Notes under the pieces: model-generated
What the model saw: the letters and a program-made list of their open reading frames with translations, nothing else
Told to the model about the DNA's origin: nothing
Database searches by the model: none
Made by a program: the position numbers and the translations under genes
Origin: Bryoerythrophyllum caledonicum
Lineage: Eukaryota > Streptophyta > Bryopsida > Pottiales > Pottiaceae
NCBI GenBank assembly: GCA_963971425.1
Contig: OZ020515.1
Location: forward strand, 19,030,637 to 19,094,636
DNA length: 64,000 nt
Direction: 5' to 3'
Part shown: positions 1 to 63,999 of the stretch, piece by piece
Numbering within the stretch: the first letter of the stretch is position 1
Layout of the letters: every line of letters begins with the position of its first letter

Positions 1-1080
1 GAACGCTTCGCAACTTTGCTAAAGGATCTGGGGTTGCACAAAGAGAATGAGTAACTGATTGCGTCCACATTCAAATAAGATGGTCCGTGAAGCCATATTG
101 CACCTGAATTATGTATTGATAGAATGAGTAGGGTCCTTCATGAAGCCATTTGGTTGCCTCATGGCTGGATACGACAAATCACAATGCAATCAAGCTTGCA
201 GTACTCCAAAAATATAATAATTTATAAAGTAATTCCATCCGGGAAACACGAAGCGGTAGGGTTGTCCATTGCTATTCTGACATGCTTGCCGTCGGCTCGT
301 CGTTTTTCAAAAGTGGTGCAGGTTATTACTATTGATTATTGAGTGTGAGCCAGAGTCAGGAATATGAAAGGAGAAAGTTACATTAATAGAGACTTTAGTG
401 TTGTTTCCATTCAAACTAAAGCCTGTCAAGATCCAAAATTTTGCATAAAGCTATTTCTCCCCTCCCCGTCGAAGGTACAAGAAGGGTTATATTTTGCACC
501 CTTGGGGTCCTTGCAATTGTGACAAGAAGTTTGTGATTTTTCTTACGAGGTTGTGTTGTTTAGGGAGTGGAGAAGACAGTAAAGTACTGAGTGTTGAGGA
601 TGACTAAGAACGCTAGACAAAGGAGAAGAGCAACTAAGTTTTCAAATCCTAAGCAAGTATGTGCTCAAAAGAATTGTCGAGAGCAGCAAGCAGTATTAGC
701 TTCCCAGAATACAGAAGTAGACATAGCAAAAACAACTGAGGAACTTAGGGATTTGCCTTCTATCGACAAAGGAGCTTTGTCATCCCGATCCAGCGTTCAA
801 GTATTTTATGATTGGTGTTCCTTTGTACTGTAGAATAAATGACTCATTTCAGTTGAATGGTAATATTGAATACCTAGGCTTCTCCCTTCCCATTTGCCGC
901 ATTCCGTTTCAGTGGCGGACCATGGGCCACGTCTGTAAACCCGGCGAATGCGTGCACTCGCTTAGTTGGGCTCCTTAAAGCTTCGGACTTAGGGTTAGGG
1001 AAAGTTTGGCTACGCGCCGGCCTTTGCAACGCCACTAAATCCCTCAAATCCCTTGGCTAGTTCGGATTTTCATTACAGCA
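1..1080. other. No recognised gene; possible 3' end of an ORF at 1-51
   Basis: The window opens in a frame that stays open for 16 codons and stops with TAA at about 52-54. This could be the tail of a gene whose body lies outside the window, but the peptide is too short to assign. A short basic ORF at 591-833 has no recognisable domain. From about 890 to 1080 the DNA becomes GC-richer and may be a leader or promoter for the repeat array that follows. I assign no function. Confidence 0.2.
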
Positions 1081-1086
1081 TCCTCC

Positions 1087-1914
1087 TCTTTCTGGACTGG
1101 GTGCGATCTTCAAGAAGTTGCCTGCGCACTACAGGTGCTCCCACCTCCACAGTTCGTCGAAGCAGGGGCCTTCGCCATCGAGGTAGGCTACTCAGTGCGT
1201 AGATTTTATATCATTCAGGATGACCCTCGGATCCGAGGGTCCTTCGGGCCACCCCAATTTTGAATAGCACCTCCCCATTTCGTGCATGAGCTCATGCTTG
1301 TGTGAGGCCTTGAGCGCATAGTCTCTCCTAATTTTGAGCTGTCAGTGGAGTTTGTATTGCACTCCGGGGGAAACGTCCAGGAAGTTGGTGGAGGACCGAA
1401 GCTGCTCCATCTCGACAGTTTGTCGAAGCAATTAGGGCCTTCGCCATCGAGGTAGGCTACTTTATGTTTTTTTTATCATTCGGGATGACCCTCGGATTCG
1501 AGGGTCCTTCGAGCCACCCTAATTTCTTGTAGCATCTCCTCAGTTTGTGCACGAGCTCACTTCCGTGTGAGGCCTTGGAGCGCGTAGATTCTCTTTATCT
1601 TCAGCTATTGGTGGAGCTTGTATTGCGCTCCGGGGGAAACGTCCAGGAAGTTGGTGGAGGACCGGAGCTGCTCCATCTCGACAGTTCGTCAAAGCAGGGG
1701 CCTTTGCCATCAAGTACTCTACTTTATGTTTTTTTTATATCATTCGGGATGACCCTCAGATCTCAGGGTCCTTCGGGCCACCCGGATTTCTTGTAGCACC
1801 TCCCCAGTTCGTGCACGAGCTCATGCTCGTGTGAGGCCTTGGAGCGCGTAGATTCTCCTTATCTTCAGCTCTTGGTGGAGCTTGTATTGCGCTCCGGGGG
1901 AAAGGAGAAAGTTG
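1087..1914 (+). repeat. Tandem ~265-bp repeat array with 18-bp palindrome, left part
   Basis: One partial and about three further units are visible. Each contains ACCCTCGGATCCGAGGGT or a variant (1223-1240 perfect; 1488-1505 and 1752-1769 with substitutions), giving a period of 264-265 bp. Each unit also ends in a segment like GCCATCGAGGTAGGCTAC, which reads as an exon end followed by a splice donor and a T-rich intron start. The array is broken at 1914 by element A and resumes at 9425. It ends immediately before the ParB-methyltransferase copy 1, so it may be a repeated leader exon and promoter unit of that gene. Confidence 0.85.
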
Positions 1915-6240: not shown

Positions 6241-7291
6241 AATTAGTGTTGCACAAGTTTAGGGTTGAATTAAAGACGTTAGACTTGGAGGTAAGTCCAA
6301 TTGTTTTATGGCAATGCTTTTGGCTTCCATTTATTTTTTCTAACATCATAGTTTTTTTTTAGTGAGTTCTCAATTCATTTAGTTATCACAATTATATCAA
6401 TTTCTTCAATCGAGAACACAAAACCATAACTTTTGTAAATTTATAACAATCAAATTTAGGAAAGATTGAAATAATTTGTTCTTGAAGTTTAAGGGCTAAG
6501 AGCTTGCAATCAATTTGTTTCTATTTTTGGTTTTTGAAGAGGGAGTTTTTGAAGAGGGAGAGACTATATTAACTATAAATTACTATCATGATTAGATTCA
6601 TTTAAAAAAAATTATAAAATTAAAAGAATTAATTTGCTTTACCAAGGGGTATTTTATGACAGTTTTGACCAAAAAAATGGTTGTTTCTTGAGGGATTAAT
6701 GTCAAAGGAAGTGAACCCAACATCCATTTGTTGTATTTAGGTCAAGTACTCATTTACAGAAATCTTCTAAATCCTCAACTCGGTCACTGATGCATTTCTT
6801 AGGAAGCATCCAAATATGTACAATTAGGTAAAGATGAAATACATGAATACATGTTGCAAAGGATTAAATATTTTTTAGCACTACAAAAGATTCAAAACAA
6901 TAGAGATCCAACATTAGCATAAGGAAGTATACAAAATTTAATCCAAATGTCCCGGAGACTAATCAAAACTTAAAAAGTCTGGAGAAGAAATTCTTCACTA
7001 TACAGAGTTGGAAATAAAATTAGGTATACTACATACTTTTTGCCAAGAATATCTAATATTATACACTCTACACTAATCATATAAAAGATTAAAAGACCTA
7101 GAACTTCCATCTAATTACACAATAAAGTAAATAGTTGACTACTAATAGTCATCATTGCAGTAAGCAATCAAAAAATATAGTCATTAATCAAGGAGATGTG
7201 ACTAGAATTAGTTATACATATTGAACAACTATGACTAAATGTAGTCATTATCTTTGTAAATTGATGACTATATTTAGTCATCAAGAAGAGA

Positions 7292-7400
7292 AAACCCTAA
7301 CTCTGATATCGCCGCCACCTAAACCCTAACTCTGATACCGCTGCCACCTAAACCCTAATTCTGACACCGCCGCCACCTGAACCCTAAACTTAGGACCGCC
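7292..7400 (+). repeat. 29-bp minisatellite with CCCTAA motifs in CACTA element B
   Basis: About four units begin at 7292, 7321, 7350 and 7379. Each has AAACCCTAA or a variant followed by CTGATACCGC-like sequence and CGCCACCT. AAACCCTA is a telobox-type motif common in plant promoters. The surrounding 7.3-7.9 kb is less AT-rich than the rest of the element and may be captured host DNA. I recognise no gene in it. Confidence 0.7.
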
Positions 7401-9424: not shown

Positions 9425-10030
9425 GGACCGGAGCTGCTCCATCTCGACAGTTCGTTGAAGCAGGGGCCTTTGCCATCGAGGTAGGCTATTTTATGTTTTT
9501 TTTTTATCATTTGGGATGACCCTTGGATCCGAGGGTCCTGCGGGCCACCTCGATTTTTTGTCTTCCTCGCTCAGTTCGTACACGAGCTCATGCTCGTGTG
9601 AGGCCTTGGAGCGCGTAGTTTCTCCTGTTCTTGAGCTGTCGGTGGAGCTTGAGCGAAGCTCCGGGGGCAGTGTCCAGGAAGATGGTGGAGGACCGGAGCT
9701 GCTCCATCTCCAAAGTTCGTTGAAGCAGGGTACGTGCTCATCGAGGTAGGCTCCCTGAATTTGTTTTTTTGATCATTCAGGATCACCCTCGGATCCGAGG
9801 GTCCTTCGGGCCACCTCAATGTTTTGTCTTCCTCGCTCAGTTTGTGCACGAGCTCATGCTCGGGTCGACCCTCGGAGCGCAATTGGCATGCTATCAAGCC
9901 GCAGTCAGCTCAACAGAAGTGACGCCGCAGGTGCAATATTCAAGAAGTTCATTGCGCCCTTCTGCTGCTCCCACCTCCGCAATAGACATCTTGTAGAGGC
10001 CTTCGCTGTCAAGGTTTACTTGCTTGCTTG
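9425..10030 (+). repeat. Tandem ~265-bp repeat array with palindrome, right part
   Basis: The array continues after element A with palindromes at 9519-9536 and 9785-9802 (266 bp apart). The last unit ends GCTGTCAAGGTTTAC, a donor-like sequence aligning with the GAGGTAGGC of the other units. A splice-acceptor-like TTGATTACAG follows at about 10064-10073, and the first ATG of copy 1 is at 10122. This fits a leader exon plus intron. Confidence 0.8.
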
Positions 10031-10121
10031 AATTTTATCTTGCTCACTCTTGAATCTCGTTTGTTGATTACAGGCACAGGCGAGTCTGGAGCACTCACAG
10101 AGCGTAGGGGGCGGTGGAATT

Positions 10122-13100
10122 ATGAGTGGAGCTAGCATTACCATTGATGAGGTATGTTGGTGCGTTCGATATGATCAAGATTGATAGGCTTTGTGGTTCT
10201 CATGGATGACGTTTCCATTATGTACTTCTATGTTTCAGATGGCACACCAAGACCTAGGGACCAGTAGTTCTGGTTTAAATCCGGTGAATCAATCCGTGGA
10301 GGAAGGATTGAATGACTTGGAGGCCGACTCAAGGATGGAATTGACAGAGCAAGCGTTGAGGAAGTCCATTTGGGAGACAACGTCTAATGTCCTCCAGAGT
10401 TCACTCTACCTTCAATCGAGGAGCTCCTCATTCCACTATGCCGCATGCGACCCATGACGGAGGTTTGTCTCCCGTTGAAGAGTGATGTTGAAAAGCTCAA
10501 GGCGGAGTTTGTGAAGGGATATCAACCTGGATCTGCATGCTTCTATGTAGCGGCTAAGAGTTTTTCAATAATTGAATAAGAGGTGCTTCTTATCGAGCGA
10601 GCTTCGTGGTCCCCACTTTGACAAGAGGAGGATCGCAAGTTTGAGACAATGTTGCAGAGTCGACCAGAGTTGCAGGCATTCTCAAACAAGTACTTCTTTA
10701 TCTGGGATGGCAACCACCGCCATATTGCATGGATGGAGGTGATATCCCAGATGCACTCTCGGGACTTCATTTTTCATTCACCGGTGAGGGCTGTGGTTCT
10801 AGAGCCGTGTTTGGCAAACCGCCATATTCAGATATTCTTCTCAACGCTATGACTGATCTTAATAAGTAAGACTCATATCCAACTGTTTTCTGTCAATAGT
10901 ATTTCTGCGTTGGGCATTATTATCAATACTATGGTCGAAATTCTAGGTTCAAATAGATATTGTATATGCACGTATCTAATCAATGGTTATTGTATCGTAG
11001 GCAAAAAGAGGCCGATCACGTCACTCAGCATATCTCGCATGAGCTGAAGAGAGTCCAACATTTTGGATTGTTGGACTTCGAGCAGTTAAAAGGCTTGATT
11101 AGCGAAGACGATTACAAAGCAAGCGTGCACGAGTAAGGAAAGAAGGCAACAAAGAAATGGTATCACATGACGTATGACGCATTTTAGAAGCTCATGTTTG
11201 AGGTAAGCTTGTCAGTGCACAACTGAATTTCAATTACCATTGTTTCCTAGTTCAGTAATTGATCAATATTCATTATCTATTTTTGATGAATGTTGGTTTC
11301 TAGCGGGAGATTGTTGCTGCCCAAGAGGAATGCATACGCAATTACAAGGATGCCTTGTCACAGGCGTTGGTGTTGATCGCGTTGGAAGTCCAACAGAGTT
11401 GGTGAGACTTTGCACTCATGCTATTCAGAAGAAGAAAATTGCTTGTCAAACAACATTCACACGGATGTTGGCGATTCCAAATCCGGCGAACGGTGAGGAA
11501 TTCTTTAAGGAGGTATGTGAATTTCAAATTTGATGGCACATGTTTATGTTTTTCCCATATTGTATCATTTTGATTCAATGTCGAACCATAATTGAGTCCA
11601 AGTACATGTGCCTCTACTTTAGGTGATTCGCCATTTTGATATTTACCAGACTAAGCCAGAGATGACACTCGAGAAGCTCCAACTCTTTTACACGGCGAAG
11701 GTGGCTGGGAAGTTGAAGGAAAGATGGTGCAAATGGTGGAACATGAGCAAGGACAATAGGGCGGAGTATAATTTCCCCAAATCGCCAGCTTCAGACACAA
11801 GTCTCCAGGGATGGATCGATACTGCTGCCTTTTGGGCTGGGGTGAGTATTTCAAATCCCTATTGTCTATTGAATTTTAGTTATCATATTTAATGGTGATT
11901 TTGTCTAAGAGATTGTACTATATGTTACAGTTGGAGGAGGAAATTGAGAAGAAGTTCTCCGAGCTTATTGAAGAGGACAACGTCGTATTGAAGAATGACG
12001 GGCATCCTAATCCCATCCAAGACATTGGTTCTTGGATGTAGGCCTGGAGCATCATGCTGTGGGCAAAGGCATTCAAAGACCACCTTGGGAGAAAAGGTAT
12101 GTTCTCGAAGTCAGAGGAGTTTCTAAAGCAGGAGGAATGCGAGAAGACTATGAAGCGGGCGATGCTTCGCTACTTCTGGAGGGAGCTCGTCGCTAAAGGA
12201 GCCTTGCTACCAAGTCAAATGCCCATCCGCTTCAAGAAGTAGACGGACCCTACTTCACCAGACTGCATCTCTATCGAACAACAGAGGCAGCGCTTCTCTC
12301 GTCATCACTTGGTGCAGTGCCCTTGGTACTTCGAGTTGAAGAATTCCGATCCTACTCTAGGTGAAGAGCTTCAGCTATGAAGGGACTGTGATTTCCTAGC
12401 CACCGGTGGAGATGGCGACATGTTTCCCTCTTCTGTCTCTACAGTGGTTGAGCCAGTTGACGTTTCGCTTTTGGAGAAGGATCGTGCAAAGGCTGCGGAA
12501 AGGGTGACCAAGGCGGCGGAGAAGGAGGCTTTGAGGGTGCAGAATCTCAAAGCAAAAACTTTGAAGAAGGAGACGAGGGAGAGGAACAAAGAGTTGGCGG
12601 CATTGGTGGCAAAGGAGGGGCGTGAGAAGTTGTTTGCTCATCTTGGAGGGGCGGCAGCGTTCGCTATTCTAGTTGCTATGGGACTGACGCAAGGCATTTC
12701 TCCATCGGGCAGCAGTCTACCCTCCACCTATGTGGCAAAGTCTTCGCAGATGATCTACACAATTCCAACGGTGGAGCATTTGGAGTCTACTGTCGGAGTG
12801 GAGGTGATTTCTCAGAGGGCTCTCAGCATTATGACTCTGTTTGATAGTATTGCTGAAGAGGATGACTTTCAATCTCTTTGGTTAGGATGCGGCATTTTAT
12901 GAAGGTACATTCTGGGTCGCAATTGCGGCATCACCGTGGAGAGCCTTGCGATGACGGTTTGGTAGACATGATACTTTTTGATGTCCCAGAGGATTTGCCG
13001 GTCCCTGGAATTGAGGGCGGTGGTACGGTGCGGAGTTGGAACAAACTTCCAACTCAGCACTCTGATGGAGGAAAGCTAGAATCCCATTGGATTCACCGGT

Positions 13101-14163
13101 GTTTTGAGATGGCAGAGGCCTTGCTTCGCGATGGGGCACCGCTCATCGTGTTCTACCCGGACTTGAAATTTATCTCTAACGAACTTTATGCTTGGGTAGA
13201 GTGGGTAGATTCCCGTAAAAAAACAAGGTGGTTCGCCATTAACGGTTTGTCTCTCTCGCGCGAGGGCCATCCCGGGCGCACTCACAAGTGCTTCATGGTG
13301 AAGTGCTATGTGAGGAAGTTGGAGCCTTGGGTTCCTTTTTCATTCAATGATAGGATGGAATTGTTGCTGGAGGGGATTCAGTTGTCATCAGATGGTCACT
13401 TGACCAATCTGATCACATAGGAGACGTTGAGGATGAGAGGATCCACCAACCAGCCATGGCGTGGAGCACGAGAGAAGTCCTCCAACTTCATGGAGGCTCT
13501 TATCGACCTTTGTACCCAGGAAGATGAGATCGTCCTCGATCTTACAACATCCACTGGTAAGTGTTCTACAGACTTCCTTTTCTCCCATAGTTTTTTTACT
13601 TTCAGCTGCTAACTTCTATTTACTTGTTTCAATTGAATAGGTGCATCCATCAAGGCTTGTAAGGCCCTCAAGCGCCACATCCTCGCATTAGAAGAGGACG
13701 TTGATTTGGTTGATGAGGTCCTCCGCCCTTTGATTCCGAGTACCATGGAAGTAGAGTCCGGAATTCTGCCACCGGTGCAAGAAGGCTTCAGAAAACGCCC
13801 ATTGGAGGTCGAAGATGACGAGCCCGAGGTGAAGACCGCTCGCAAGAGAACTTGTAAGTAAGTTTAGGGTCCCATCTTTGTTGAATGACTTTCCGTTGAA
13901 GTTTACCGCCTTTGATAATATTCACTCGTTGACATCACCGTTCCACTTGATCAATGCAGATGGTCGACGTCGTTGATGGCTTCACCATCAACATCTCAGA
14001 CCGGGGTGCTATCGCGCATGTCGAAGGAGATGATGAGTCCGCATCGCTCATATCATATGAATCCTTGGGATTGGGGCATCGCACATGCGATGGCTGCATT
14101 ACCATCTCCTCCACCGATTTCACGAGTAGCCCATTTTTAGGTCTGCAGCAGAGCAGTTCATAG
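10122..14163 (+). pseudogene. ParB/Srx-like domain fused to beta-class DNA methyltransferase-like domain, copy 1
   Basis: A multi-exon gene with about nine recognisable exons and good GT/AG sites (for example introns 10152-10238 and 13557-13640). The first ~250 residues (10240-10850) contain PSIEELLIPL, SDVEKLKAEF, GYQPGS and WDGNHRHIAWM, the pattern of a ParB/sulfiredoxin fold. The middle exons (11000-12400) are helical and unassigned. A Lys/Glu/Ala-rich coiled coil follows (12430-12630). The C-terminal part (12900-13860) has FDVPEDLPVPG in the place of the DPPY motif, then REKSSNFMEALIDLC and EIVLDLTTSTG (motif I), the IV-then-I order of beta-class N6/N4 amino-methyltransferases. It carries several stops (in exons 2, 3 and 6 and before 13421) and at least two frameshifts, so it is decayed. 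Two relatives lie at 50.4-54.8 and 59.4-55.4 kb. Known: ParB-methyltransferase fusions occur in bacteria and phages. Inferred: a plant family derived from one. Confidence 0.6.
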
Positions 14164-14986
14164 ACAGAGAAGCGGTTGGTAGTTGTATGGATAGTAGTTT
14201 GCTTGATATTTATGAGGATAGCTCGGATGAGCTATCAAGGGAGGAAAATTGAATTATCCATTTGGTTGTTTTGTTTTTTAATAGTGCGTGTTGATTTTTT
14301 ATATCTTCATTAAAGTCGTCTATCTATTGTGTTTTATCTAGGAATAACGATTTCTTTCTACATATACTTAGCCAACATAATTACCATTTGTGTAATGTTA
14401 GTTCATTGAATGTTTTGAGCCACGCGATTTTTACAATCTCAAACCATATTTAATGAACTACAAATACTTTCAAAGTATCCAACTTTTCCAAATCAAAGTA
14501 GTAAAACAACATGGGTATCGCCTAAGTATTAGATGAATGTGACCCATGTATTAAAAAGATATAGTAGATCCAATCCACGGCCATAAGTGTCCCTTTAGAT
14601 TTTTAGACAAATTGTTACAATCCTTAACATCAAAAATTAAGTAGTCACAATGTCCAAATATCTTGTCCTTGTTCATTGTTGCATGTTTTCAATTTAATGC
14701 CAAATTTTTTAAAATTTAATCCACGGTCATAGGTTTCCATATCAATTTTAAAAATTTTGGACAAAAAAAAACCAAAAAAACAGTGCTTACCGCTCGCTGC
14801 TCAAGGCTCACTGCTCACAAGATAGCATTTCTGACACGTGACAATGAGGTGGAGATAAGGGCGCGAGAGACTGAAGATGGCTAGCAACAAGACTAGTTTT
14901 GCCGCAACTTTGGGGGCCATTGGAGCATTGAGCACAAGAGTTTCTTCCGATTTTCTCCAGAGAGAGCTGAGAAGAGAGAAGATGGT
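14164..14986. other. AT-rich spacer with a GAGC-terminated repeat (14540-14822)
   Basis: No gene is seen. From 14822 leftward (minus strand) the sequence reads GTGAGCAGTGAGCCTTGAGC, an A-rich tract, then CCTATGACCGTGGATT. The same order of motifs occurs at 54794-54900 and 56805-57070, so this is probably one copy of a small repeat family. Its far end and any target duplication are not clear. Confidence 0.45.
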
Positions 14987-42355: not shown

Positions 42356-42378
42356 AGCATCACGCACTCTATAAGTTT

Positions 42379-50400: not shown

Positions 50401-53400
50401 AAATATCTAGAGTCCAAATTTGTGCATGGTTATCGTGAAAGGGTTCGCATATTTTACGGGTCTATCACAGATGAATAAGGAGTCTGTAAGGAGATAACTA
50501 ACAAGATAACAAAGAACATGAGACGAGCATTGGCATCGTGAAAATGATATTTTTGGAAGCCAGCTTATGTTTAACGATCACTCGGCTTCATTATCTTGAA
50601 AGATGATTTTTGTTTGGGATGGTAATCATGGGCACAAGGATTGGCTTATTACATCTCCAAAATGCATTCATGTGATGCCGCGTGGCATTATTTGGTGGAT
50701 TGTATTCTCCTCACATCAAAGGGGAGCACCGGCATTCTCATGAATGCAATGAACGACATCAACATTTCAGAATTCTATTGTCAAAATGTTTTCTCTCTTA
50801 TTCCAAGTAATATTCAAGTACATAACTGATAAATATTTTGACATGCACAGATCCACCAAGAATGCTCACGTGAAGACTAACGTGGTGGATCAATTGCATC
50901 GAATGAACAAGTATGGGCAAATGAATCTAATTGAATCTAAAGAGCTCCTAATTCCGGACAAGTACACAACACGTGAAAATTGCCTGAAGCCCTACACGTG
51001 GTATCCTTTAATCTCCAAAGTCTTCATCAAATTCTTGAATAGAGTAAGTTATTTTGTTAAACCCTTTCATGTATAATCTTCAAGTCCTCTACTTTTAATT
51101 AAATCAAAATAAACTTCTATTGTAGCAAGAAGTAATGGCTTTTGTTGATGAAGCCGCAAGACTCTACACCGAGGAAAACACCATTAGAAAACCAGACATG
51201 AGTACGAATTCAGAAGGCAATGAACGATGCCTCTCAATTGAAAGTTAAATCTTTCATATCGGAATTTGATAAGCTAGCTTCTGTAGCTAATCCCAAGCAT
51301 ACACCCGAATTCCTCAAAGTGGTGAGTATACTCTTGTCTTGCATGTTATAGTCATTGTTCAATTTGCCTAATCATCTCTATTCACAACATTCTTGGTTCT
51401 ATAGATCAATTACCAGAGGAGCAACTTCAAAAAGCCCGAGATATCATTAGAGAAGCTCCAGAAAATCTCAGCTCCTATTGTTCAACCTCAATACAAGGTT
51501 AGGTGGTTGGAATGGTGGAACTCCGGTGACATTAGTAGTTGGCATTAAAACCTCTACGTTCTGGTATGACTTCTGAGAAGCTTGATGCATAGTTACACAA
51601 GGCAGCATTCTAGGCCGAGGTGAGGTTTTACATGTGATTGTTTTATCTTCACATTATATTATTGTAGGCAAAGTTTGATTGCTTCATACTAAGTTGTAAA
51701 ACTGACATATTTCACAGTTGGAGCATGTTACGGTGAAAGCTGTAAACGATACTCTCGCATCTGCGAAGTTGACCATTGATTGGATCGTTAAGGATGATCT
51801 TGATTCAATTGAAGATTACATTGAAAAGTGGCAGATTATCGTGTGGGATCACGCGTTCTATTTCCTCTTTAGGAAGTAAGGTGGCTTCTCAAGACTAATC
51901 CTCTTCATAGGCCAAGAGGGAAACAACAACGCTATGAAGCGACTTCTATACCGGTAACATATCCTATAACTTTGTTTGCTTATTGCATCCCAATCCCCCT
52001 TAATTTTGAGGTCCTCCATGCGGAAGAACATCCTTGCTTCTACTACGTTGTGGTTCCCATGATTTTACAAGGGTCCAAGCCACGGGAGCAAGGCTCCTTG
52101 TTTCCAAGGACCTTAATTGCACTTTATAATTTATCCATGAACTAGACTTCTTATTATGGAAGAGCATATTTTTCTTGGCCAATTTTGAGGTCCTTGTTAC
52201 GAAGGAGCACCCTAGCTTCTTCAGTTTTCATCTCCTATAATGATTTGGTTCATTTACATTAAGTAGGGTCCTTGACATCGATGGCCTTATTGATTTTGTG
52301 GTGTATCCTTTGATGCATATTGATATGCAGGAGTAACAATTCTTTCAATAATTAGTTGTCGTTGTTCATTATTTGTTTTACACAGTACCTCTAATTTTGA
52401 CAAACATTGTTATGGAATGATATAGGTATTTCAAAAGAGAATTGCTTGCTAAGGGCGAGATCGATCGCAAGTCCATGCCCAAGTTTTTTGGAGCTTGGTT
52501 TGAGAAGACTCTTTCTACATGCATGTTTACTACTAGACAAACGCGGGCATTCAATTCAATGGAACTCTAGGCTTGCCCATGGTACCTGGAATGCCCAAGA
52601 AAGATTGCTTCCACAGAAGACAAAACCAAGAAGGCAGGCCATACTCCTCAAGCTGGAGACACGGAGGAGATCTTTGATGACAAAGAGGAAGAGGAAATTG
52701 GGGTGGAGGTCGTTGTGACCACTAGTAAGAAATCTGCCAAGGAAAGCAAGGATGCCAAGGAAACAAAGGACTCCACTGACGCCAAGGGTACTAAGAAGAC
52801 AAAGGAAGCAAAGGGGAGCTTGTCGAATGATAAAGCCAAACAAACATCCGCAACCTAAGTGGCACCTTCAATTGCACAGGCGGTAAGTATTTTGTCTCAT
52901 TGCTCTCAGTTTCAACAGAGATGTTTGCACCTTCTCAATTGCATGCCCTTAGTGCCCAAAGCAGAGGCACTCATGGCATTTAGTCCGTTGTGTTGACCTT
53001 ATGCATATCAATCCCTGCCATTATTGACTACATGGTGAAAAACGTTGCACAATCTCCCGAGTTCATACAACTTATGGACTTTGCTAACATGGTATACTCT
53101 CTTTATTTCCATTTAATTTTCTCACCTCGTCATGGAGCATTCTGATTATTTTCATTATATATGGTTTTATGATTGTTTGATGTAACAAACTCTCTCAGAT
53201 GGGTCATGGTCGTGAACGACTTGATGGAGTTTTAGCAAAACAAGAGTCATGTTTGGACCTCATCATGGTTGATGTGCTAGATGGCTTACCAATCCCGGAG
53301 TTCTCGAAGTTAGATAAGGACATCCCCAAATGGAATGAATTGTGCAAAGACTGGGCAGAACCAATTTTAGAGCTAGATGTGAAGTTTCTCCAAGACAATG

Positions 53401-54794
53401 GCGCTATAATTTTTTTTCATTCTGACAACTCTAGAGTTTGTAATGCGACGGATTCATTGGCGGAGGCTTACGATTCTTGCATGATTGGTGGGGCAATAAT
53501 GAGATTCACTTGACATCATTTAAGAACCCAAAAAAAACAATAAGTCAGTTCATTTTCTATTCTCCTAAGTTGCTCAACGATGTCCATTCCAGTCATGATT
53601 ATTTCAATAGCTAACAGAAAGCTTGTACTTGTCCAATACTTTAAACAAAATGTTTTTGGATCGTTCTTTACATCAATGAGTCATTTGGCAGGAATATAGT
53701 GCAGTCGGACTTTTCTATTGAGGCAAACCAAGAAGCGAGCAATGTTGGCACGGACATTGTTGGCAAGAGTATTCTTTTATAACTACACAACCACCAGTTC
53801 CTACTTGAGGAATGGTGCAAAATTGAGGCGGGGTAGTTGTGAGAAGCACGCTCTCTTGGTCGAGTTGCTCATTAAAAGCTTCTCCAAACCAAGAGATGTT
53901 ATACTCAACTGCAACACCTCTACTGGTTTGAATATTTTTCTTATCGTTATGTCTGCATTCTGGATTACAAATTCTATCCTTTCTAAGGGAAAAAGATGTT
54001 GAGGAACGGCAAGTTCTGAGGACGACCGTCAATTTATTTTTGCCGATTTTGTGTTCTTTTGTTAAATGTTGCACTTAATTTAAGCCATCTCTTCTATAGT
54101 TGTCCACTTCTTGCATGTAGCCGAGGAGCTTTTGTTTCCAATATTAAATTCTAATCATAGTTTGCTCTATTAGTCATATGGCAGACCTTATGGAGAGATT
54201 CCTCGGTTATGCATTTTATTGCTCCCAAGCGCAAGTGTCCAGGCATTTCGTCGAAGTAAATGCCACCTTGTGGCATTGGAATCTGATACTCTCATATTTA
54301 GAGACATCTTAGCGCCTTTGAGTTCAGAGTTGTCTAAAGTAGTTTGTAAGCACAACAAGCGTAAGGCACCGTCAGCAACCGTGAAGAGTTTGGAGAAGAG
54401 GCCCCAAAAAAGGTTCCCAAGAATCGATTGAGTACGTAAGTCTAATCACATGTCACTATCAATTTTTGTTTCGTTTACTGCTATGTTATTTGTTTGTTTT
54501 ATGCCACTTACTTTCAAATTCTCACTAAAAAATCCATTTATCTCCTGTTGCAGTCATCTAGATGAATGTGCAAGCCCTCCAATCACATATCTCTTGCCGT
54601 ATTATATTGTGTCTTTCGCAATAGAGATGGCGAGTGTTTCTACTCCGATACGTCTATCACCTTCTCCGCAATACAATATTAGAGTGTGGAGACTCTTGGA
54701 TATAGAAGCCAAAGAGGTGGATCAGGAAGAAGAAGTTTCGAAGGAGATCAGGACTCCGAGCCTTCATGTGGCAGGGGGGAAAGCTCGTATGTGA
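50400..54794 (+). pseudogene. ParB/Srx-like plus DNA methyltransferase-like protein, copy 2
   Basis: Same exon order as copy 1. A decayed ParB part contains VKGFAYF (50430) and FVWDGNHGHKDW (~50610). Middle exons follow at 50851-51043, 51125-51240, 51410-51540 and 51720-51880, and 52425 onward gives YFKRELLAKGE, parallel to YFWRELVAKGA in copy 1. A Lys/Glu-rich linker (52640-52860) replaces the coiled coil. The methyltransferase part has DLIMVDVLDGLPIPEFS (53258-53310), EKHALLVELLIKSF and VILNCNTSTG (~53905-53925), then SVQAFRRSKCHLVALESDT (54240). It ends with a Ser/Pro-rich exon stopping at 54794. Numerous stops (for example in the ParB part and after SSWH at ~51545) show decay. The end faces copy 3 656 bp away. 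Confidence 0.6.
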
Positions 54795-55449
54795 GCGGTG
54801 AGCAAAAAAAGAGAGCTAACTTTTAAGGATTTTACATAGACTTAATGAACAAAGGGGCCCCTATTACCGTGGGATACTTTTAAAAAACTTGAAAAAGTTA
54901 GCTTTCGAATGGATTTTCTTAGTATATTTATAGACATTAGGGCTAACATCATCATGAACATTTATTAAAAAGAGTGATGTCATCATGTACTATGTAGGGT
55001 TTTTTAACCATAATTTTGAATACTATATGGATTAAGGGCTCAAATATTACAAGTACGAACAAAAAGAAGAACTCAAAAGTGAAAATAATTAAAGATTGAT
55101 AAGATGAAGATCCAAAATATGGTTAAATATATTTCTTTTTTGATAACATGATAGTGCGGGAGTAAATTAGTAAGATAGAAGATAAATGTATGTGTTAGTT
55201 ATTAGTGTGAAATTGGTATTGTAAAACCATTATAACATTACATGAAGAGAAGAAAAGAAGATCAATATATAATGAAATAGTCCTAAAGGACACGGTACAA
55301 TGCGACAAGTATAAATGAAATCTAAGATAAAGCTATCAATTGGCAAATCAATGTCAATTGAAGGCCAAGTTAAACCAAAACAAATGCTTATTCAAATGGC
55401 ATGCAATGCAAATAAAAAAACTATCTATGAACGGACCGCCATTGTAAGC
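54795..55449. other. Spacer between convergent copies 2 and 3, starting with a GAGC-type repeat
   Basis: Begins GTGAGCGGTGAGC followed by an A-rich tract and CCCCTATTACCGTGGGA, matching the motif order of repeats at 14822 and 56805. The remainder is AT-rich with no ORF. Confidence 0.45.
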
Positions 55450-58400
55450 CTATTTAGAACTATCCTCGCTACCAGCACTTTCATGAGCCTCTAAATCAAG
55501 ATCCTGAATAACACGCTTATCAAAAGCGCGCCTAGGTTGCCGTAATTGTGGAGATGGCAACTCTACCATCACTTGAGCTGCATCTCCAACATAGCTAGGG
55601 AGAAAAATGCTTGATGGTGGTGAAGACGAAACAAGCCTTGATGGAGCAGAAGGAGTTGATCTTGTTGAAACTCTACAAGGAAAAAAACAATAAGGAATTG
55701 AAGAAGATTTAATATTATGTTTTTAGTATGAAGGATAAACCATAGTACAAGGTCCAAACTTACTCACAAGATGCTACGCGATTGCGTTTTTGTCTCTTTT
55801 TAGGACGCTTATTAGAAGCATACCGTTGAATCCTCTTATTCTGTGCCACCGGAGGCGGCATTGCTGTAGGAATAAGAGGTTCCAATAGAAATTTGAAGAT
55901 TTCCGAGTCATCTTCAAAGGCCAAAATGTGGCGACCGGTTGCTTGACAAACACGAATAGATGCTCCCGCAAGAGGCCAAGTCAATTAATAACTGGCTTGA
56001 CTGAATAAATAAAAGCTTGAGCACATTAAAAAATCAAATGAAAGATTTAGTGTCAAATAAGAATTACCAGTGGAGGCATTCCAATCTAATATGATATCTC
56101 CAACCTCTGATGTTGCCTCAATGAAGAACCGCATGAAATCCGAACCTTTCTCCCGAGGCCCTCGCCATGGCACACTCATGCATAAGTTGAGTGTCAGAGG
56201 TTACGACATTGTAGAAAGTGTCGTCTTCATCAATGCTCGAGCGGAAGAAGAATTGAGATTTGATTGGATCATCTCGTACAAATAACTGAGCCCAGAACCG
56301 AGTACACTACAAAAACAAAGTAAAAATGAATTAGGACATATAAAGTTAATATACTATGGAGATTGTAGAAAATAAAAAGTATAAACATACCGTGGAGGAG
56401 GAATTACGTGGCAAAGCTAAAGGAAGATCATTCATTGCCCACCAATCGTGCTCAAGCCGGAAATTATAAGTCTCTGCTAGCTCTTCCACCTCAAACAAGA
56501 CGTCATGATCATTTGGATGAAATAGTATGACAGGGGCGTCGTCATGCAAATACAAATCAGCAAATTCAAACACCGTCTCCATATATTTATCCGGCCTAAC
56601 ATTGCAAAGAGGAATGGCCGTATTCGGTACTGATATTCCAGGCACAGGCAAATTCTCTGGAATGTCGACAATAATCAAATCGATTCCACTGGTGTGTTTG
56701 CATTGTGGATTGGAAACACGACGGGTCCTCCTTGCTCCAACCTAATAGAAGAAATTATGAATAATGAAAAGAATTAAATCAAATGATATCATAGGGGAAA
56801 GCTATTTTTCGAGCGTAGGGTTGCGAGCGGAGAGCGGCGAGCCTTGGTTCGCGAGCGCAGAGCGCAAGAAGTAGAGAGTTCAAAGAAAAAAAGCTAAAGT
56901 TTATGGAAATTTAAAGTTAAAGCTAAAGGAAAAGTAAAAGTGAACATTTAGGATAGGGTCCTATAGCCGTGGAAATTGGACTAGATCTGAGATTGAAGTG
57001 CTATCAAGATGTACTAAATTGCCACTAGAAGTGAAATTAGAGTAGGGACTGACCAATGAAATGGGTATTACTACCCTATGACCGTGGATGAATTGTGTTT
57101 TAATGAAAACAATTCTTTGTACAAAAAGAGGAGAGGAAAGTTGGATTCCAAATACAGTTTCAACTAGTTATTCATCAAGACTTATAAATATCCAACGAGT
57201 AAGTGAGATTTAAAGAAGGAGACTCTAAATTTGAATTAAGTGGAAATTTTAATCGTGAATTCTGTCGACTGAGGGACTTCAACCATGTATGTGGAACTAA
57301 TATTGGTATTTAAATAATTTTCTTAAGAAGAACTCAAGAAGCAATATATCTTCAATGGACATAGTGAGGGACCACATACTGGACTGCTATAGCAGATTTC
57401 CATATGAACTAATGTAGAGTAATTTGAGAGGTTGCTTGGAGGGGAAGAGCATGTTTAGTAGTACAAGAGTAGTGTTTATATTTTCCATAGTGGATATTCG
57501 ATCGGTTGTAGAGTTTGAATAGGATGAAGAGAAGAGCTTGAAATCAACAACTTTGAAACATTGCAGTGATGCAATGTGATCAAAACGACGGCATCAAATT
57601 AGAAATTTAGTGGCAATCTAAAGTCATCACTTCCTTCAATCAATGTCAATTTTGGCACTTTCTTTACTAAGGTGTTGATGCGCAATGCAACATCTTTATG
57701 GGACCACTGAGAATGTGGCGACACTCTCCACAGAGGTATTTTGTTCATTGGCAACAACGACATGGATTTCAAAAATGAAGACAAAAGAATGAGTAATTTA
57801 ACATAAGTGCAAAGAGTGGGAAAATAAATAGAATTTGATAGATAAAGTTGTTTTGATTCGGTACACAAGCATGAACACCAAACAATACTTCCATTATCTT
57901 TTTGATACTTGTAGGCTCAACAAAGATTGAAATAGGATGTGACAAAATGAAGCGGGAAGCACATCTACTTTCTACTTCAATTTATGTGTAATAAAGGAGG
58001 GGGGACTTTATTCATCCTCTATTAACGGTAGTGGGCTAGAGTAATGGCTTCAAGCAACAACTGCAGCAGTTAGGATAATGTGAGCTAAATCAAAGATATA
58101 TGTGTTGACACCTATATCCACTATCGTGAGGGCCTCATTGTGAGCCGCCTACTTTGTTGTCATCTCAGCAATAGCAACCTCAACAAAGAGCTTGATGCTC
58201 GCTTTGACCTTGGCAACTACAACCTTCAACTTCATAATAGCTTTAGCCTCCACGGCTGTTTTTGCCTCCACCATTGCTTTCTCTTTCTTTGCCTTCTCAG
58301 CTTCAGCCGCCTTCATCTCCGTTCCTCTTGTTTGTTTTCTAGGCGCCGCAGCATCTAGCAAACGAACCATAATCTCACTGCCAACTTAATCGGGTTAGAT

Positions 58401-59412
58401 GCCATTTCTGAGTTTGATGTCAAGGATAGGGGCTTGGTCAGTGGGAGTTGAAGTATCACCCGCATTTATGCTAGTGCAGATGGGCCTATTTTTTGGGATG
58501 TTTTCAGCTAGAATGCACCTGTTGCCATCACAATCTACATAATTTTCAAAATATGCACGCATCTTTAACGTCGCCTTCCTTGTATACAAGATGTAGAAAA
58601 ATATATGTATAAGACTTAGGTCATGGCCTATGAAATTCCGATGACCAACTTTGCAATACAGTTCTTGTGCACACCCTTCACATCCAACTTGTCCAGAACC
58701 GCCAAGTCCCATAGCTAAATGCGCATTCACTCTACGTAATCTTGAATTAATAGAATGAGACACTCTCTAAAAGCTTGAATGATGAAAGTCAATCGCCTCT
58801 CCAAGTTCAGATAATGTAGAATCAAATAAGACCACCACCTCAATTGAAAGCTGCAGAAGCATCTCCAATGAGATCATATGAACTAGTTTAGAATCAAGAT
58901 TATTGAAGGTATTGAAACAAACATGTGCTTACCAATTTGCCTTCATCAGCTATCTAAGAAAAGAATTGTCTACAAGTTTTCCCATTGGAAATTTCAGTAA
59001 AACACGCAAAGAAGCTAACTTATTCTCGCTCTCCAGCCACTTGACCTTTCTGGCAACGTCCATTGCAGAGGTTGAGGGATAAATCAAATTTTTTTGAGAC
59101 ATCTTTGGATAATCTTTCAAACTCTAATTATATAGCCTGATTTGTTCAAGGGACTGTGGAGTAACCTTAGGGTCTGCAATGGGCAACAACTTCTTCAACA
59201 TAGATGTCATTTTTTTTCACTTTCATGACAACTTTGCTGACCACCTTGTAGAGTTTCTCCGTTGTCCACTCAGTTGACTTATCTAAAAAATTGCTCTTGA
59301 AACATCTGAGTTGCATTTGAACGACATTATCAAACTGTTTATGTATTAAAAAAACACGATTGCATGAGCAAATGATGCAATGAAGGATAGGTGAAAGTGC
59401 ACTAATGTTCAA
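55450..59412 (-). pseudogene. ParB-methyltransferase-like family, copy 3 (N-terminal domain missing)
   Basis: Collinear with copies 1 and 2 on the minus strand. Middle exons: 59412-59167, then ADPKVTPQSLEQIRL and VARKVKWLESE (~59170-59030), MRAYFENYVDCDGN (~58560), and an Ala/Lys/Glu coiled coil (58370-58149). The methyltransferase part is better kept: IIVDIPENLPVPG (56675-56640), HDDAPVILFHPND, EHDWWAMNDLPLALPRN, PWRGPREKGSDFMRFFIE, GDIILDWNASTG (~56085) and an intron, then GASIRVCQATGRHILAFEDD. It is followed by a basic KRPKKRQKRNR nuclear-signal-like run and a last exon ending with TAG at 55450. The ParB part would lie above 59.4 kb, where the foldback array now sits. Confidence 0.6.
56805..57070 (+). 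repeat. GAGC-terminated repeat, third copy, inside ParB-methyltransferase copy 3
   Basis: Begins with GCGAGCGGAGAGCGGCGAGC and related words, then an A-rich tract, GGTCCTATAGCCGTGGAAATT and, further on, CCCTATGACCGTGGATG. The motif order parallels 54794-54900 and the complement of 14540-14822. The right end is uncertain. Confidence 0.45.
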
Positions 59413-59689
59413 AACTACGATAATAGCACATCACAATATGGAGGCAATCAATATTAGCAGACCCCAGATACAAACTTGGAATATGCCTTACGGTCTCCAC
59501 TTGACGGCAGCCGCTTAGCTGCAAGAATCTTCTAGACTATAGTTTACTTAAACTAACAACTAGTAATATCAGCTACCTACAAAGGGAAGGTTGAATTTGA
59601 ATATCTTCTTGGAAGTCAACTACTTCAGCAACCCATGGAGACAATCATACCTTTCTAAAGAGCCCTCTTATTTTTTTTAGAGAACTTCA

Positions 59690-61402: not shown

Positions 61403-63999
61403 AAAGAGTACCTAGGAGAATTACTATTATGCCCAGAAGGTGTTCCTCAGAAGGTTCTTCCATTTGATGAACTCATTCCAGTTCTTGACAAGTTCAAGGA
61501 GATGCCCTCCCCAAAAATTTGGAATGAAATGACCACTTTCCGATACTTCCGACGATTTGGAGTTATGGACAGTATAACAAAATTGAGCGGCTTTAGTAGC
61601 TGGGCATTCATCTAGGAGAACCGCTTTTCTGGACAAAGATCAAAGACGGAGAAAGTTTTTATTTTCAAGATGTCCGAGGTTGGTCATGGATGCGGGGTTG
61701 ATTTAGTAAAGCGAATGCAACCTGGTGGCAATTTGGAAGAGGCGTGGATGATGATTGACCACGTGAAACGCGTTAAGGAGTGGACCACCATGGCCTGTCA
61801 TGTTTACGATTCGACATTTTGTCGTGTTATGACAGTTGTTGTATGCGATATGCAGTCAGAGGACGTTGATGTCCAACAACTTTTCTGGAATAGTCTCAAT
61901 AATGTTGCAAAGAGGCATGGTATCTCTGGCCCAAATATTAAAGGATTCATGGCGGAAAGTGCTCAGGAAAATTGGAATGCGGTGCGTATTTTGTACGGTT
62001 CGAGCGACCCCGCAGTGCCAATGGACAACCGCAAGAGGACTTGCCTATTTCATTAGATGCAATCACTTGAAAAGTACACTAAGACAGACAATAGGGCCGA
62101 CCTTCAGGACCAACACCGCCGTCTCTGCAAGCAGTATAAGGACTCCATCTCTTTGGAAGATGCCCATAGTCGATATTTGGCAATCCGAGCATGGTGGTTG
62201 TCTTCTGGTGCCGCAACAGAGGAGGCACTTCCAAGACTTGACTTGTGGCTTGCATTCTGGCATTTCAGATATCGGCAATGGGGCGGATTCATGCAACTAG
62301 TAAGTTCCTTTAGAATCATGTTTCTTATATCTTTATTCTAAAAAGTGTTGATGGGTTTTAGCAGTGTACATTGCTTTGTACTCGATTAGTTCATTTTACA
62401 TTCTACAGTACTAAAACCTGCTTCGTTAATTCCTTTCACCAAATTCTAGTAGTGTGTTTGGCAACGTGAGTCTTACAATCTATTCTATACAAAATTAAAC
62501 CTTTTCATTCTTCATTGCCGGTATGTTTATATTCACAATTCATTATTTTTCATTGATTGTTTTCTGTATTTCCCGGTTTTTTCCATCTTCATTCCATTTC
62601 TTTTGGTTTTTTTCCCTTTCACTTTTTTTCTTCTTTTCTTTTCTTTTGGGCAGTTCCTATTCCCCCAGGTTTTTCTCTATCCTTATTACAGGTCGCCGAT
62701 ATCGGCTGCCCTTCCACAGTAATACAGTTGGAATCATCTGTTATGGGAATTGAACCTAGTCGACATCGCCTGCTCACATGAGCAACGAAGTGCTCAATGT
62801 CATTCATTTATATCGGCGACGAAGGTGTCTGTTCTTGACCAGTCTCAAGGCGTTGTCGCCATTGCCTCTACTGAACCACGTCTTTCCTTGCGGTGTTGTT
62901 ATCACTTTGAGTCTTTGAGTGCACTTCGAACTCCAGTTGCCAAATCATGCCTACTGAATCTTCTTCATTGCAGGATCTGTCCGACGTCGAACTTGCGGAA
63001 ATGCCCTGGTGTAACTTGGCCAAGACAGTCCACAACAAATGGCTGCAATAGTCCGACAAAAGAGGGAACGATCTTTATGTCGCCACTGTTGATGACATGG
63101 TCCGCGCATTCATGCAGGTTGTTGCCTACTATCAGTTTCTTAAGGGTTAAAGCCCGGAACTGGTCATGACAAGGAGGAACTCCGACTCCGTACTGCCCAT
63201 TGAACCGCTCAGTGCATTAGGAATACTACAGTTCTTCAAGCAACTTTTGCCACAATGCCGGGTGCAAAAGAATTTTGCACACGAGATCCTCACCTAGAAG
63301 GTGAAGAAGAATTCGTTTCGTTGAAACGAAATGCGGACCTTCCTCCAGACTCTGAATTTGATTCCCACCGCCCTGACAAGATTAATGTCTCCCGTCCACG
63401 ACTTAGAAGACGAAGGAACGATCCAAAGATTGTTGATCTTGTAGCTGACGACTATGATTTGCCGTCTGAAATGAGGCGTGCTCCAGCTGAGGTTCATTCG
63501 TCTAAGACTCCAGCTACTTTGCCTCCTATGCAGCATGTTAAATCGGTTCAAGAGATTGTTTGCGACGAGAGGGAGTGGCACATTGCAAGGCTTCCGAAGA
63601 CCTCGGAAAAAGCTTGTTTTGCCATGCATGGCAGAAAGAGATGTGCTACAAATATTTTGCAGAGCGGGCGACCTACGGCTGCTCCAACTTATAATGGCCT
63701 CATGGACAATTACAAGAAGACCAGAATGGAGAAGATGCAATTCTTCTTTTGCAAAGACAATATCCATCCTTGTGTCCACAGCCCTCAACGATTGTGGGTT
63801 GTTTGTAAACCCTTTCTTCCAGACGTATGGCCGGTGAAGTTGGGCACTAATCTTAGTAATTCGAAGATATTTTCTCTCGAGTGTGGCGGCTTTAGACTTG
63901 CAGAGCGAGTTGAGATGTCTCCTCAAAAGCTGTTTGGCGAAGGCGATTCCGTGGACCTCGCGGACTACCCTCCTCCTCCCAATCCTTTGGACCACCCAA
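61403..63999 (+). pseudogene. MULE-like transposase-related protein with CDMQSED motif, runs off the window
   Basis: Exon from about 61403 to 62299 reads through ELIPVLDKFKEMPSPKIWNE, FRRFGVMDSIT, then HVYDSTFCRVMTVVVCDMQSED (61800), NIKGFMAESAQENWNAV (61940), CLFH (62050) and FWHFRYRQWGG. Intron 62300-62973 has GTAAGT and TTGCAG and joins in phase 0 to DLSDVELAEMPWCNLAKTVH. In-frame stops at 61613, 62054 and about 63053 are all TAG; the second sits where Trp is expected. A different frame is open from about 63285 to the end (KACFAMHGRKRC, KKTRMEKMQFFFC, KPFLPDVWPVK), with spaced Cys suggesting a zinc-binding C-terminus. The RNase-H-like look of the first block suggests a DDE transposase relative, but the family has no function I can name. 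Confidence 0.5.
62744..62802 (-). repeat. tRNA-like sequence (possible tRNA-derived SINE or pseudogene) in an intron
   Basis: On the minus strand a D-arm-like GAGC-ACTTCGTT-GCTC is followed about 30 nt later by GGTTCAATTCCC, close to the B box of the tRNA internal promoter. The anticodon arm does not pair well, so this is not a working tRNA. SINEs commonly carry such heads. Confidence 0.4.

Follow-up and report, generated by a model that had tools for sequence, protein, structure and literature searches.

Three decayed loci in a moss are copies of an accessory gene, with ParB-like and methyltransferase-like parts, of a high-copy DNA transposon family

Do three related multi-exon loci that resemble a bacterial-type DNA methyltransferase represent host genes of a moss, or the cargo of a mobile element? 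The loci lie in a 64,000-nucleotide stretch of Bryoerythrophyllum caledonicum DNA (contig OZ020515.1), referred to here as the window. The initial annotation had described a multi-copy plant family with introns and a beta-class methyltransferase domain, and our analysis supports that description. Comparison of reading frames identified locus A (10122-14163), locus B (50.4-54.8 kb) and locus C (59.4-55.4 kb, minus strand) as collinear relatives, which bears out the earlier grouping at the level of exons: A and C match at the motif IV exon (E 6e-13), the motif X/I exon (E 3e-13) and the exon 3' of motif I (E 3e-11), and B and C match at the motif IV exon (E 2e-12). The N-terminal and middle exons of A and B are collinear as well, with weaker single matches. 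The WDGNH(R/G)H block attributed to two loci reads WDGNHRH in A and WDGNHGH in B, and motif IV precedes motif I in all three, as had been claimed, though motif IV of B is DVLD. Stops or frame changes interrupt all three loci.

Locus A is a pseudogene that forms the accessory-gene half of a transposon copy on the forward strand. Its earlier end at 14163 is corrected here, as the element runs to a transposon terminus and the half-copy spans 10122..14833. This region is 87.5% identical over 4742 columns (blastn) to positions 6897-11620 of E31, one of three elements that we examined (E31, E33 and E35). The ParB-like exon (IPLCRM ... WDGNHRH ... VRAVVLEP) lies at approximately 10241..10860 and contains frameshifts and stops; positions 10400-10849 align with a profile of 67 relatives (A3) at an hhalign probability of 100. 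Three middle exons follow within 11001..11841 (approximately 11001-11202, 11304-11512 and 11623-11841, with boundaries placed by eye from the sequence), in the order found in intact copies. A long exon at approximately 11931..13556 encodes a linker, a charged region, motif IV (DVPEDLPVPG) and motif X/I (PWRGAREK...LDLTTSTG), and the last shared exon (ASIKACKALKRHILALEED...) starts at 13641 and ends near 13855. The right terminus (GCTCACTGCTCACAAGATAGCATTTCTG) is at 14806..14833 on the same strand. The central part of element A, at 11..856 on the forward strand, is 73% identical to E31 4007-4838 and has been displaced by extra DNA: the interval from 856 to 10122 is about 7 kb longer than its counterpart in E31. 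Three repeat units of family D1, spaced by about 264 bp, lie at 1202..1903 (+) and are probably the central array of the element, and two further D1 units lie beyond the extra DNA, at 9498..9936 (+). Element A extends leftward beyond the window, where a transposase-bearing sequence is 92% identical to E31.

We then examined copies across the genome of this moss. The search returned 150 scored methyltransferase matches, all with E <=4.7e-78, from 1432 first-look candidates. Near-identical copies occupy different contigs, with one pair (L031/L032) 99.7% identical along a single aligned piece (2947 columns) and another (L033/L034) 98.2% identical over 6039 columns. The three elements examined are 11.6, 13.2 and 14.9 kb long, have inverted ends of about 20 bp, and are flanked by 10-bp target site duplications (TSDs) that match at 10/10 positions in E31, 10/10 in E33 and 9/10 in E35. 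With up to 1 mismatch allowed, the right terminus pattern occurs at 451 genomic places, compared with 0 for a reversed control. The elements carry a divergent gene pair encoding a SWIM-like, D/D/E-like transposase and a protein of approximately 1040 residues with five introns. An E35-type methyltransferase copy is found within 12 kb of 39 of 63 transposase places and within 35 kb of 45, and every such partner within 35 kb is on the expected side and strand. (The 63 places derive from 64 rows, as one copy that is split in two was counted once.) When the list of methyltransferase matches from the same genome was used instead, partners were found at 36 of 63 places within 12 kb and 39 of 63 within 45 kb. 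The chance expectation within 12 kb is about 0.5 places. No partner was found for between 13 and 24 of the 63 places, depending on the list used; hand-picked rows (21, and six added in union counts) were left out of the counts in favor. Collectively, these results show that a high-copy DNA transposon family carries the accessory gene, of which loci A, B and C are decayed copies. The initial annotation had offered two identities, and the transposon-borne gene is the right one, as copies have transposon ends and are linked to a transposase; for the same reason, a chromatin-targeting host factor is unsupported as the primary identity. An independent host gene family is ruled out, since the copies bear transposon ends and TSDs. 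Our literature search found no description of this methylase-carrying plant transposon.

Loci B and C are diverged pseudogenes. Locus B, at 50420..54790 (+), retains WDGNHGH, DVLDGLPIP and LNCNTSTGASVQA. Locus C, at 55450..59430 (-), retains VDIPENLPVPG and PWRGPREK...LDWNASTGASIRV, and we saw no ParB-like WDGNH exon in it. A transposase fragment at 61652..62307 (+), divergent from locus C and 66-82% identical to the transposase regions of E31, E33 and E35, probably belongs to the same element. A terminus-like sequence (GAAAGCTCGTATGTGAGCGGTGAGC) at 54779..54803 (-), which differs from the terminus pattern at 6 positions with up to 7 allowed, is possibly the end of that element.

We infer that the transposon is Mutator-like; the grounds are the length of its TSD, sequence motifs and Pfam matches, which are weak. 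The 10-bp TSD of the three elements falls inside the 8-11 bp range of Mutator-like elements (MULEs). The best Pfam match of the transposase core piece is PF00872, at a weak E of 0.11, and PF10551 is not among its matches at E<=10. A CxC...CxH motif is present in all three elements, with a weak match to the SWIM family PF04434 (E 0.93, 9.6 bits, compared with a cut-off of 19.6). Searches with whole transposase ORFs returned no transposase family in Pfam, and a PDB search with the transposase returned no transposase. The elements contain internal tandem repeats that differ between subfamilies. Of two candidate binding motifs, neither CCACGGYCWTAGG (3, 3 and 4 per element, compared with shuffle maxima of 3, 2 and 4) nor GCTCRCC (5, 7 and 7, compared with 8, 5 and 10) is clearly enriched; in two copies (L034 and L035), however, the right end carries GCTCGCC as a 4.6-copy array.

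Intact copies of the accessory gene yield stop-free spliced frames of 1037 aa (E33), 1038 aa (E31) and 1039 aa (L055, from another source), and five GT-AG introns interrupt each of them at matching positions. A script selected the splice sites in a way that preserves the frame, and frame continuity is therefore partly by construction; the absence of stops and the GT-AG dinucleotides are independent of that choice. In E35, the ParB exon is open in the correct frame. From its N terminus, the predicted protein can be read as a DGNHR (ParB/Srx-like) domain followed by a middle region and a charged linker, with a beta-class DNA methyltransferase domain at the end. This two-domain fusion is read from genome sequence, and our searches found no single database protein carrying both domains. 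Between subfamilies, dN/dS is 0.115-0.189 for the long exon (three pairs) and 0.059 for the ParB exon (one pair), which shows, at the level of sequence comparison, purifying selection on the predicted protein.

By homology, the predicted C-terminal domain belongs to the beta-class N6/N4 DNA methyltransferases, a claim that concerns kinship and not catalysis. A relative from Ceratodon (P0156) passes the cut-off of PF01555 (35 bits compared with 26.7) across profile positions 2-217 of 221, and two further relatives give E values of 9e-4 (P0130) and 8e-4 (P0131). In the window, the spliced C-terminal part of locus A (E 4.4e-4, 20.7 bits) and locus C (E 9.8e-5, 22.8 bits) match below the cut-off, and at E up to 10 this is the only one of 24736 families that either of them matches. 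Sequence matches in the PDB include the adenine methylases DpnA, RsrI and CcrM, and motif IV comes ahead of motif I, in the beta-class order.

Entry of the gene from a bacterium or phage, as first proposed, is plausible; among the hits of our contig scans, none is a convincing relative from a prokaryote or a virus. Three scans of viral contigs found 50, 55 and 6 stretches that fit a search pattern, none of which was confirmed. A scan of genome contigs found three loci. Two of these, L055 and L056, have the same introns as the plant copies and sit in a cyanobacterial bin, and are probably plant DNA. The third, L057, comes from a Chloroflexaceae bin; the match is short, and we take it to be an ordinary SAM-binding motif.

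What might such a protein do for a transposon? The explanation that we favor, with some confidence, is that it is an accessory protein of a Mutator-like transposon that acts on the DNA of the element itself. The protein would be made for the benefit of the element; its ParB-like and middle parts would engage element DNA, either at the ends with GCTCRCC or at the tandem arrays in the center; and its SAM-binding methyltransferase part would modify, or sense modification of, that DNA. As a result, the element might escape host silencing or gain competence to transpose.

The catalytic motif IV of these enzymes follows the pattern (D/N/S)-P-P-(Y/F/W). In all 14 rows of an alignment of our choosing (A5), motif IV is instead D-x-P-E and the aromatic residue is absent, so methylation activity is uncertain. 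Among 30 loci of the same genome, motif IV is DVPE in 12 and DVSE, DVPK or DVLE in one each, with 15 outside the pattern; a motif pattern that itself required an acidic or amide residue at position 4 of motif IV matched 25 of 42, so the statement on D-x-P-E is based on the 14 aligned rows instead. The substitution, together with the retention of motif I and the motif X-like PWRGAREK in many relatives, would fit a catalytically dead fold: a binder of SAM and/or DNA, comparable to an inactive partner subunit, that would tether or license element DNA in a structural or regulatory role and never methylate it. We rate this possibility a little short of even. The D-x-P-E-x-L-P-V-P block is kept in 14 of 14 rows and dN/dS is low, however, which would also fit an altered working site.

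The initial annotation also described a ParB/Srx-like domain. The ParB-like motif is supported; ParB/Srx identity of the predicted N-terminal domain is weakly supported. In 67 aligned relatives, out of 120 listed for the ParB exon, the DGNHR residues are conserved in 66 (D), 66 (G), 67 (N), 67 (H) and 65 (R) sequences. Aligned by hhalign with 14 phage ParB domains, the profile scored 20.4 compared with a maximum of 17.9 in 100 shuffles, and 19.0 compared with 15.1 when the insert was removed (above 100 of 100 shuffles), with probabilities under 5% in both cases. PHROG 1033, 'ParB-like', was matched by 10 of the 67 relatives (best E 0.044), and two of the 67 matched DndB in a Pfam/NCBIfam search (best E 0.087). 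PF02195 had 0 matches at E<=10 in this genome, although the same model gave matches in 11 control genomes out of 14, and it is absent from the 25 Pfam families listed for the 67 relatives. A PDB search with the ParB-like exon profile returned no ParB, only a ribosomal protein (E 0.069), and a tblastn search of phages with one ParB-exon relative yielded four weak hits that carry no ParB annotation. This domain is central to a less probable alternative, in which it would be an NTP-regulated nickase or DNA clamp that aids cutting or targeting by the transposase, with the methyltransferase part only setting the timing (e.g., new versus old DNA). Such a cofactor would fit the divergent pairing with the transposase at 45 of 63 places within 35 kb, the retention of DGNHR, and the DNA nicking reported for the ParB-methylase Bce_0392 of Bacillus cereus in the available part of PMC5512222; the weak ParB identity counts against it.

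Also less probable is the boldest form of the favored reading. A bryophyte Mutator-like lineage would carry its own bacterial-type ParB-methyltransferase with a working, altered D-x-P-E site, and would equip its own DNA with a 6mA/4mC mark or a SAM-dependent clamp, as a private epigenetic identity against host 5mC silencing or as a license to transpose. It is very improbable that the gene is a captured host gene, spread by the transposon and useless to it. Mutator-like elements do tend to acquire host gene fragments, according to the portion of PMC6446971 available to us, but full length, intron places and frame are kept in three copies from two sources, dN/dS is low across subfamilies and linkage to the transposase is frequent. 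Chance resemblance to methyltransferases can be dismissed almost entirely: PF01555 matches neither locus B nor seven relatives (P0123, P0126, P0135, P0141, P0142, P0153 and P0162; E up to 1), and P0001 (E 0.01) and the intact ORFs of L031 (E 0.11) and L035 (E 0.74) match weakly, yet P0156, P0130 and P0131 match and A and C hit this family alone.

A methylase-like second gene is of interest since its product may enable the element to mark its DNA or protect it. Few transposons bring along a chromatin- or DNA-modifying protein of their own, and those that do are instructive; they include VANC in Arabidopsis, TET/JBP in fungi and SET in oomycetes (PMC5735166, PMC12730594). A high-copy plant element with intact copies of a bacterial-type DNA methyltransferase-like protein would add one more route of this kind, and the disputed N6/N4 DNA methylation of land plants would become testable in one well-defined family.

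Several known systems share parts of this design. A single polypeptide likewise joins an N-terminal ParB-like domain to a DNA methylase in Streptococcus phage Javan492 (Javan492_0027) and in B. cereus Bce_0392 (the latter as given in the accessible text of PMC5512222). Javan492 differs in that DPPY is kept and the methylase is annotated as two adjacent genes. The plant protein, in contrast to these phage and bacterial fusions, has approximately 1040 aa, a long middle region, five introns and D-x-P-E, and belongs to a eukaryotic DNA transposon. MULEs, especially VANDAL elements with vanC, share the 8-11 bp TSD range and, in the transposase, a candidate C-terminal SWIM-like zinc motif (PMC6446971, in part), as well as a second element-encoded gene and subfamily-specific internal tandem repeats (PMC5735166, in part). 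The VANC anti-silencing proteins encoded by MULEs bind noncoding regions that form tandem repeats, as excerpts of PMC5735166 and PMC10398659 state. Unlike MULEs, the plant transposase matches the Pfam Mutator and SWIM models weakly and its terminal inverted repeats are short (about 20 bp); unlike VANDAL, the second gene reads as methyltransferase-like rather than as VANC. Fungal DNA transposons with TET/JBP also have a DNA-base-modifying enzyme family as accessory gene (PMC12730594, as partly available). Those enzymes are dioxygenases and their hosts are fungi. The 4mC methyltransferase of bdelloid rotifers, N4CMT, is a host gene. The point of comparison is that bacterial-type 4mC is reported to serve as an epigenetic mark in a eukaryote (PMC8885841).

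Searches of the organism's own genome (437 Mb, 894 contigs) with the methyltransferase (MTase) exon of locus A (10122-14833, plus strand) returned at least 150 scored matches, all with E ≤4.7e-78, among 1432 first-look candidates. Many of these matches sit in open frames of 564-648 aa. We compared five 10-kb stretches and added the left neighbours for three, from which three complete elements were read: E31 (11,620 bp), E33 (13,232 bp), and E35 (14,926 bp). Their left ends are GAGCGACGC, CAACGACGC, and CAGCGACGC, then TATCTTGTGAGC, and their right ends read GCTCACAAGATAGCAWTCCTG. Two 10-bp flank duplications are perfect (TATGAGGTCT and GTGAAAATAG, 10/10 each), and a third, GGATTGTGCC/GGGTTGTGCC, matches at 9/10 positions by eye and over 7 bp by script. 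With at most one mismatch, the right-end pattern occurs at 451 genomic places, compared with 0 for the reversed control pattern. These ends, duplications, and recurrent termini bear out the suggestion in the initial annotation that the gene could be transposon-borne.

The accessory gene lies on the plus strand of the complete elements, and intact copies retain an open fused reading frame. Scripted splicing, at sites picked to keep the frame, removes five GT-AG introns (83-136 bp each) and leaves a stop-free protein of 1037 aa in E33 and 1038 aa in E31, where the first-exon start is not fixed. L055, a locus from another source, yields a 1039-aa product whose introns occupy corresponding positions. 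Central tandem arrays vary by copy, from 244 bp x 5.1 in one (L031) to 221 bp x 4.1 plus 139 bp x 2.4 in another (L034) and short units only in a third (L035). The gene is under purifying selection. Between subfamilies, dN/dS of the long exon (Nei-Gojobori, own script) was 0.115, 0.189, and 0.149, at dS of 0.95-1.73, and that of the ParB-like exon was 0.059 in one unsaturated pair, two other pairs being saturated. Among eight intact copies, the median was 0.31 over 17 of 28 pairs, namely those with dS >0.02. Because intact copies were chosen and dS is high, these values are rough, yet lower than expected of a passenger gene.

Two open reading frames (ORFs), 713-736 aa and 455-476 aa long, lie on the minus strand of the elements' left half and are presumably exons of a single transposase-like protein. 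This protein contains the D-containing blocks MFDHVKRVKDW and FMADSAGANW and, further on, an NLAETVHN block, all with putative catalytic roles, and ends in a SWIM-like C-x-C...C-x-H motif. Among Pfam families, pieces of it gave weak matches to Mutator (PF00872, E 0.11) and to SWIM (E 0.93); the whole ORFs matched no transposase family there, and a PDB search gave no transposase match. We infer kinship with Mutator. A review of Mutator-like elements (MULEs) describes target site duplications 8-11 bp long, SWIM fingers in many elements, and additional ORFs that the elements have acquired; the covered part of its table lists no DNA methyltransferase (PMC6446971).

Linkage of the two genes is frequent. 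Among 63 transposase places (64 rows, with one copy that was split in two counted by its first piece only), an E35-type accessory match lay within 12 kb in 39 and within 35 kb in 45, always on the expected side and strand. Using the at least 150 A-type matches, the partner was within 12 kb in 36 of 63 and within 45 kb in 39, where chance would supply approximately 0.5 partners within 12 kb. The other 18-24 places may have no partner or one outside the matches listed.

Within the window, which spans positions 19030637-19094636 of its contig, the three loci are related and collinear, as had been proposed. In a frame-by-frame comparison, the MTase exons of loci A and C (55450-59430, minus strand) matched at E 6e-13 and 3e-13 and those of B (50420-54790, plus strand) and C at 2e-12; middle and N-terminal exons are also collinear, with weaker matches. 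Locus A has WDGNHRH and locus B WDGNHGH, and no WDGNH-type exon was seen in locus C. All three are pseudogenes, since each has stops or frame changes. Element A ends on the right at 14833, and its segments 11-856 and 10122-14833 match E31 4007-4838 (73%) and 6897-11620 (87.5%), respectively. L053, a locus left of the window, is 92% identical to E31 1308-3994 and encodes a transposase piece; no left end or target site duplication of element A was found within the 6.5 kb searched. Locus C would form one element with a transposase fragment at 61652-62307 (plus strand), divergent from it as in the complete elements, and with a terminus-like sequence at 54779-54803. The fragment has FMAES where complete elements have FMADS. 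A second terminus-like, GAGCGG-rich sequence within locus C (56811-56835) may mark a related element nested in one of its introns.

The window also holds other features. Inverted arms of 3799 nt (4948-8746 and 25654-29452), reported as 100% complementary and 16.9 kb apart, represent a recent duplication or paired insertion; tandem units of 182 bp lie within the arms or next to them. A Tc1/mariner-like element (41179-43951) has 550-bp inverted repeats, 98% complementary, and an open 343-aa transposase ORF (42358-43389; PF01498 and PF13358). Minus-strand ORFs at 4362-5051 (229 aa) and 23534-24463 (309 aa; no Pfam match) share FNPIFHPEKPKR by eye and probably belong to another repeat family. Also on the minus strand are copia-like remnants (46429-48991; zf-CCHC, Pol_BBD), a hAT-type DUF659 ORF (18251-18580; E 7.9e-8, just under the cut-off), and MATH-BTB (BPM/SPOP-type) pieces (36214-38012), apparently of an ordinary host gene. 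A long GAA/TTC- and GGA/TCC-type microsatellite (33240-33560) opens several frames.

The C-terminal domain is homologous to DNA methyltransferases, in agreement with the initial annotation. Against 24736 Pfam families, PF01555 (N6_N4_Mtase) was the sole match of the spliced C-terminal parts of A (E 4.4e-4) and C (E 9.8e-5), both under the curated cut-off; that of B had no PF01555 match. The sole match of the first protein search (P0001) gave E 0.01 against PF01555, and the intact ORFs of L031 and L035 gave 0.11 and 0.74. When 5.8 billion proteins were searched with a profile, 42 relatives came up, including KC19_N032100 (P0156) of the moss Ceratodon purpureus, which scores 35 bits against PF01555, above the cut-off of 26.7 (E 1.9e-8, profile positions 2-217 of 221). 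Of nine others scanned, P0130 and P0131 matched below the cut-off (E 9e-4 and 8e-4), five had other weak matches only, and two had none. PDB sequence searches returned the adenine methylases DpnA, RsrI, and CcrM, with lower-ranked matches including rRNA adenine dimethyltransferase and an aldolase. Canonical motif IV is D-P-P-Y, of which this family retains the D and second P alone: D-x-P-E-x-L-P-V-P is present in 14/14 aligned rows (window exons A and C plus 12 of the 42 relatives, picked by the analyst). Across 30 own-genome loci the motif is DVPE in 12, different in 3, and outside the search pattern in 15. Membership in PF01555 is thus supported, and methyl-transfer catalysis, which we regard as putative, is not.

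The N-terminal assignment to ParB/Srx fared less evenly. With the exon profile, 167 relatives scored E ≤1, and the best 120 of them include Ceratodon M758_9G115400 (P0026). In the 67 of these that were aligned, DGNHR is kept (D 66, G 66, N 67, H 67, and R 65 of 67). At E ≤10, PF02195 matched nowhere in the genome but did ring in 11 of 14 control genomes. The 25 Pfam families listed across the 67 relatives did not include it, and DndB matched two relatives (best E 0.087). None of 11 NCBIfam families listed was ParB, and the PDB search with the exon returned a ribosomal protein only. The most frequent PHROG was 1033, 'ParB-like partition protein' (10/67, best E 0.044). Compared profile to profile with 14 phage ParB domains, the exon scored 20.4, and the highest of 100 column shuffles reached 17.9. 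Leaving out the family-specific insert gave 19.0 vs 15.1, with 11.1 for the MTase alignment as negative control; hhalign probability was <5%. At a low alignment threshold, strand and helix order follows ParB in the analyst's reading. On balance, profile comparison and PHROG hits somewhat favour a ParB/Srx-like domain, and the PF02195 search does not.

Entry of a bacterial or phage fusion, also proposed initially, was not borne out by the scans. No relative was confirmed in the viral contigs scanned, and the two good prokaryotic matches, L055 and L056, bear introns; their contigs, assigned to an uncultured Synechococcales cyanobacterium (AVDCRST_MAG81), are probably plant contamination of a bacterial bin. 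The only two organism-named relatives among those listed for either exon are from Ceratodon purpureus, which makes a moss or close relative the likely host. A bacterial or phage source is nevertheless plausible by analogy, since a ParB-like domain precedes a methylase with DPPY in Streptococcus phage Javan492, and a bacterial ParB-methylase is reported to nick DNA (PMC5512222).

Our best-supported guess is that the protein would act on the DNA of its own element, binding a target within the repeats and either methylating it or sensing SAM, with anti-silencing or licensing of transposition as the outcome. In the literature searched, mostly without subscription papers, no description of such an element was found. 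VANC is reported to act on DNA of its own VANDAL MULEs (PMC5735166, PMC10398659), and TET/JBP may act on their own element's DNA in fungal transposons (PMC12730594). A transposon with an epigenetic enzyme is of a known kind; the combination of an MTase-like enzyme, ParB-like pairing, and a moss-lineage host appears to be new among such transposons.
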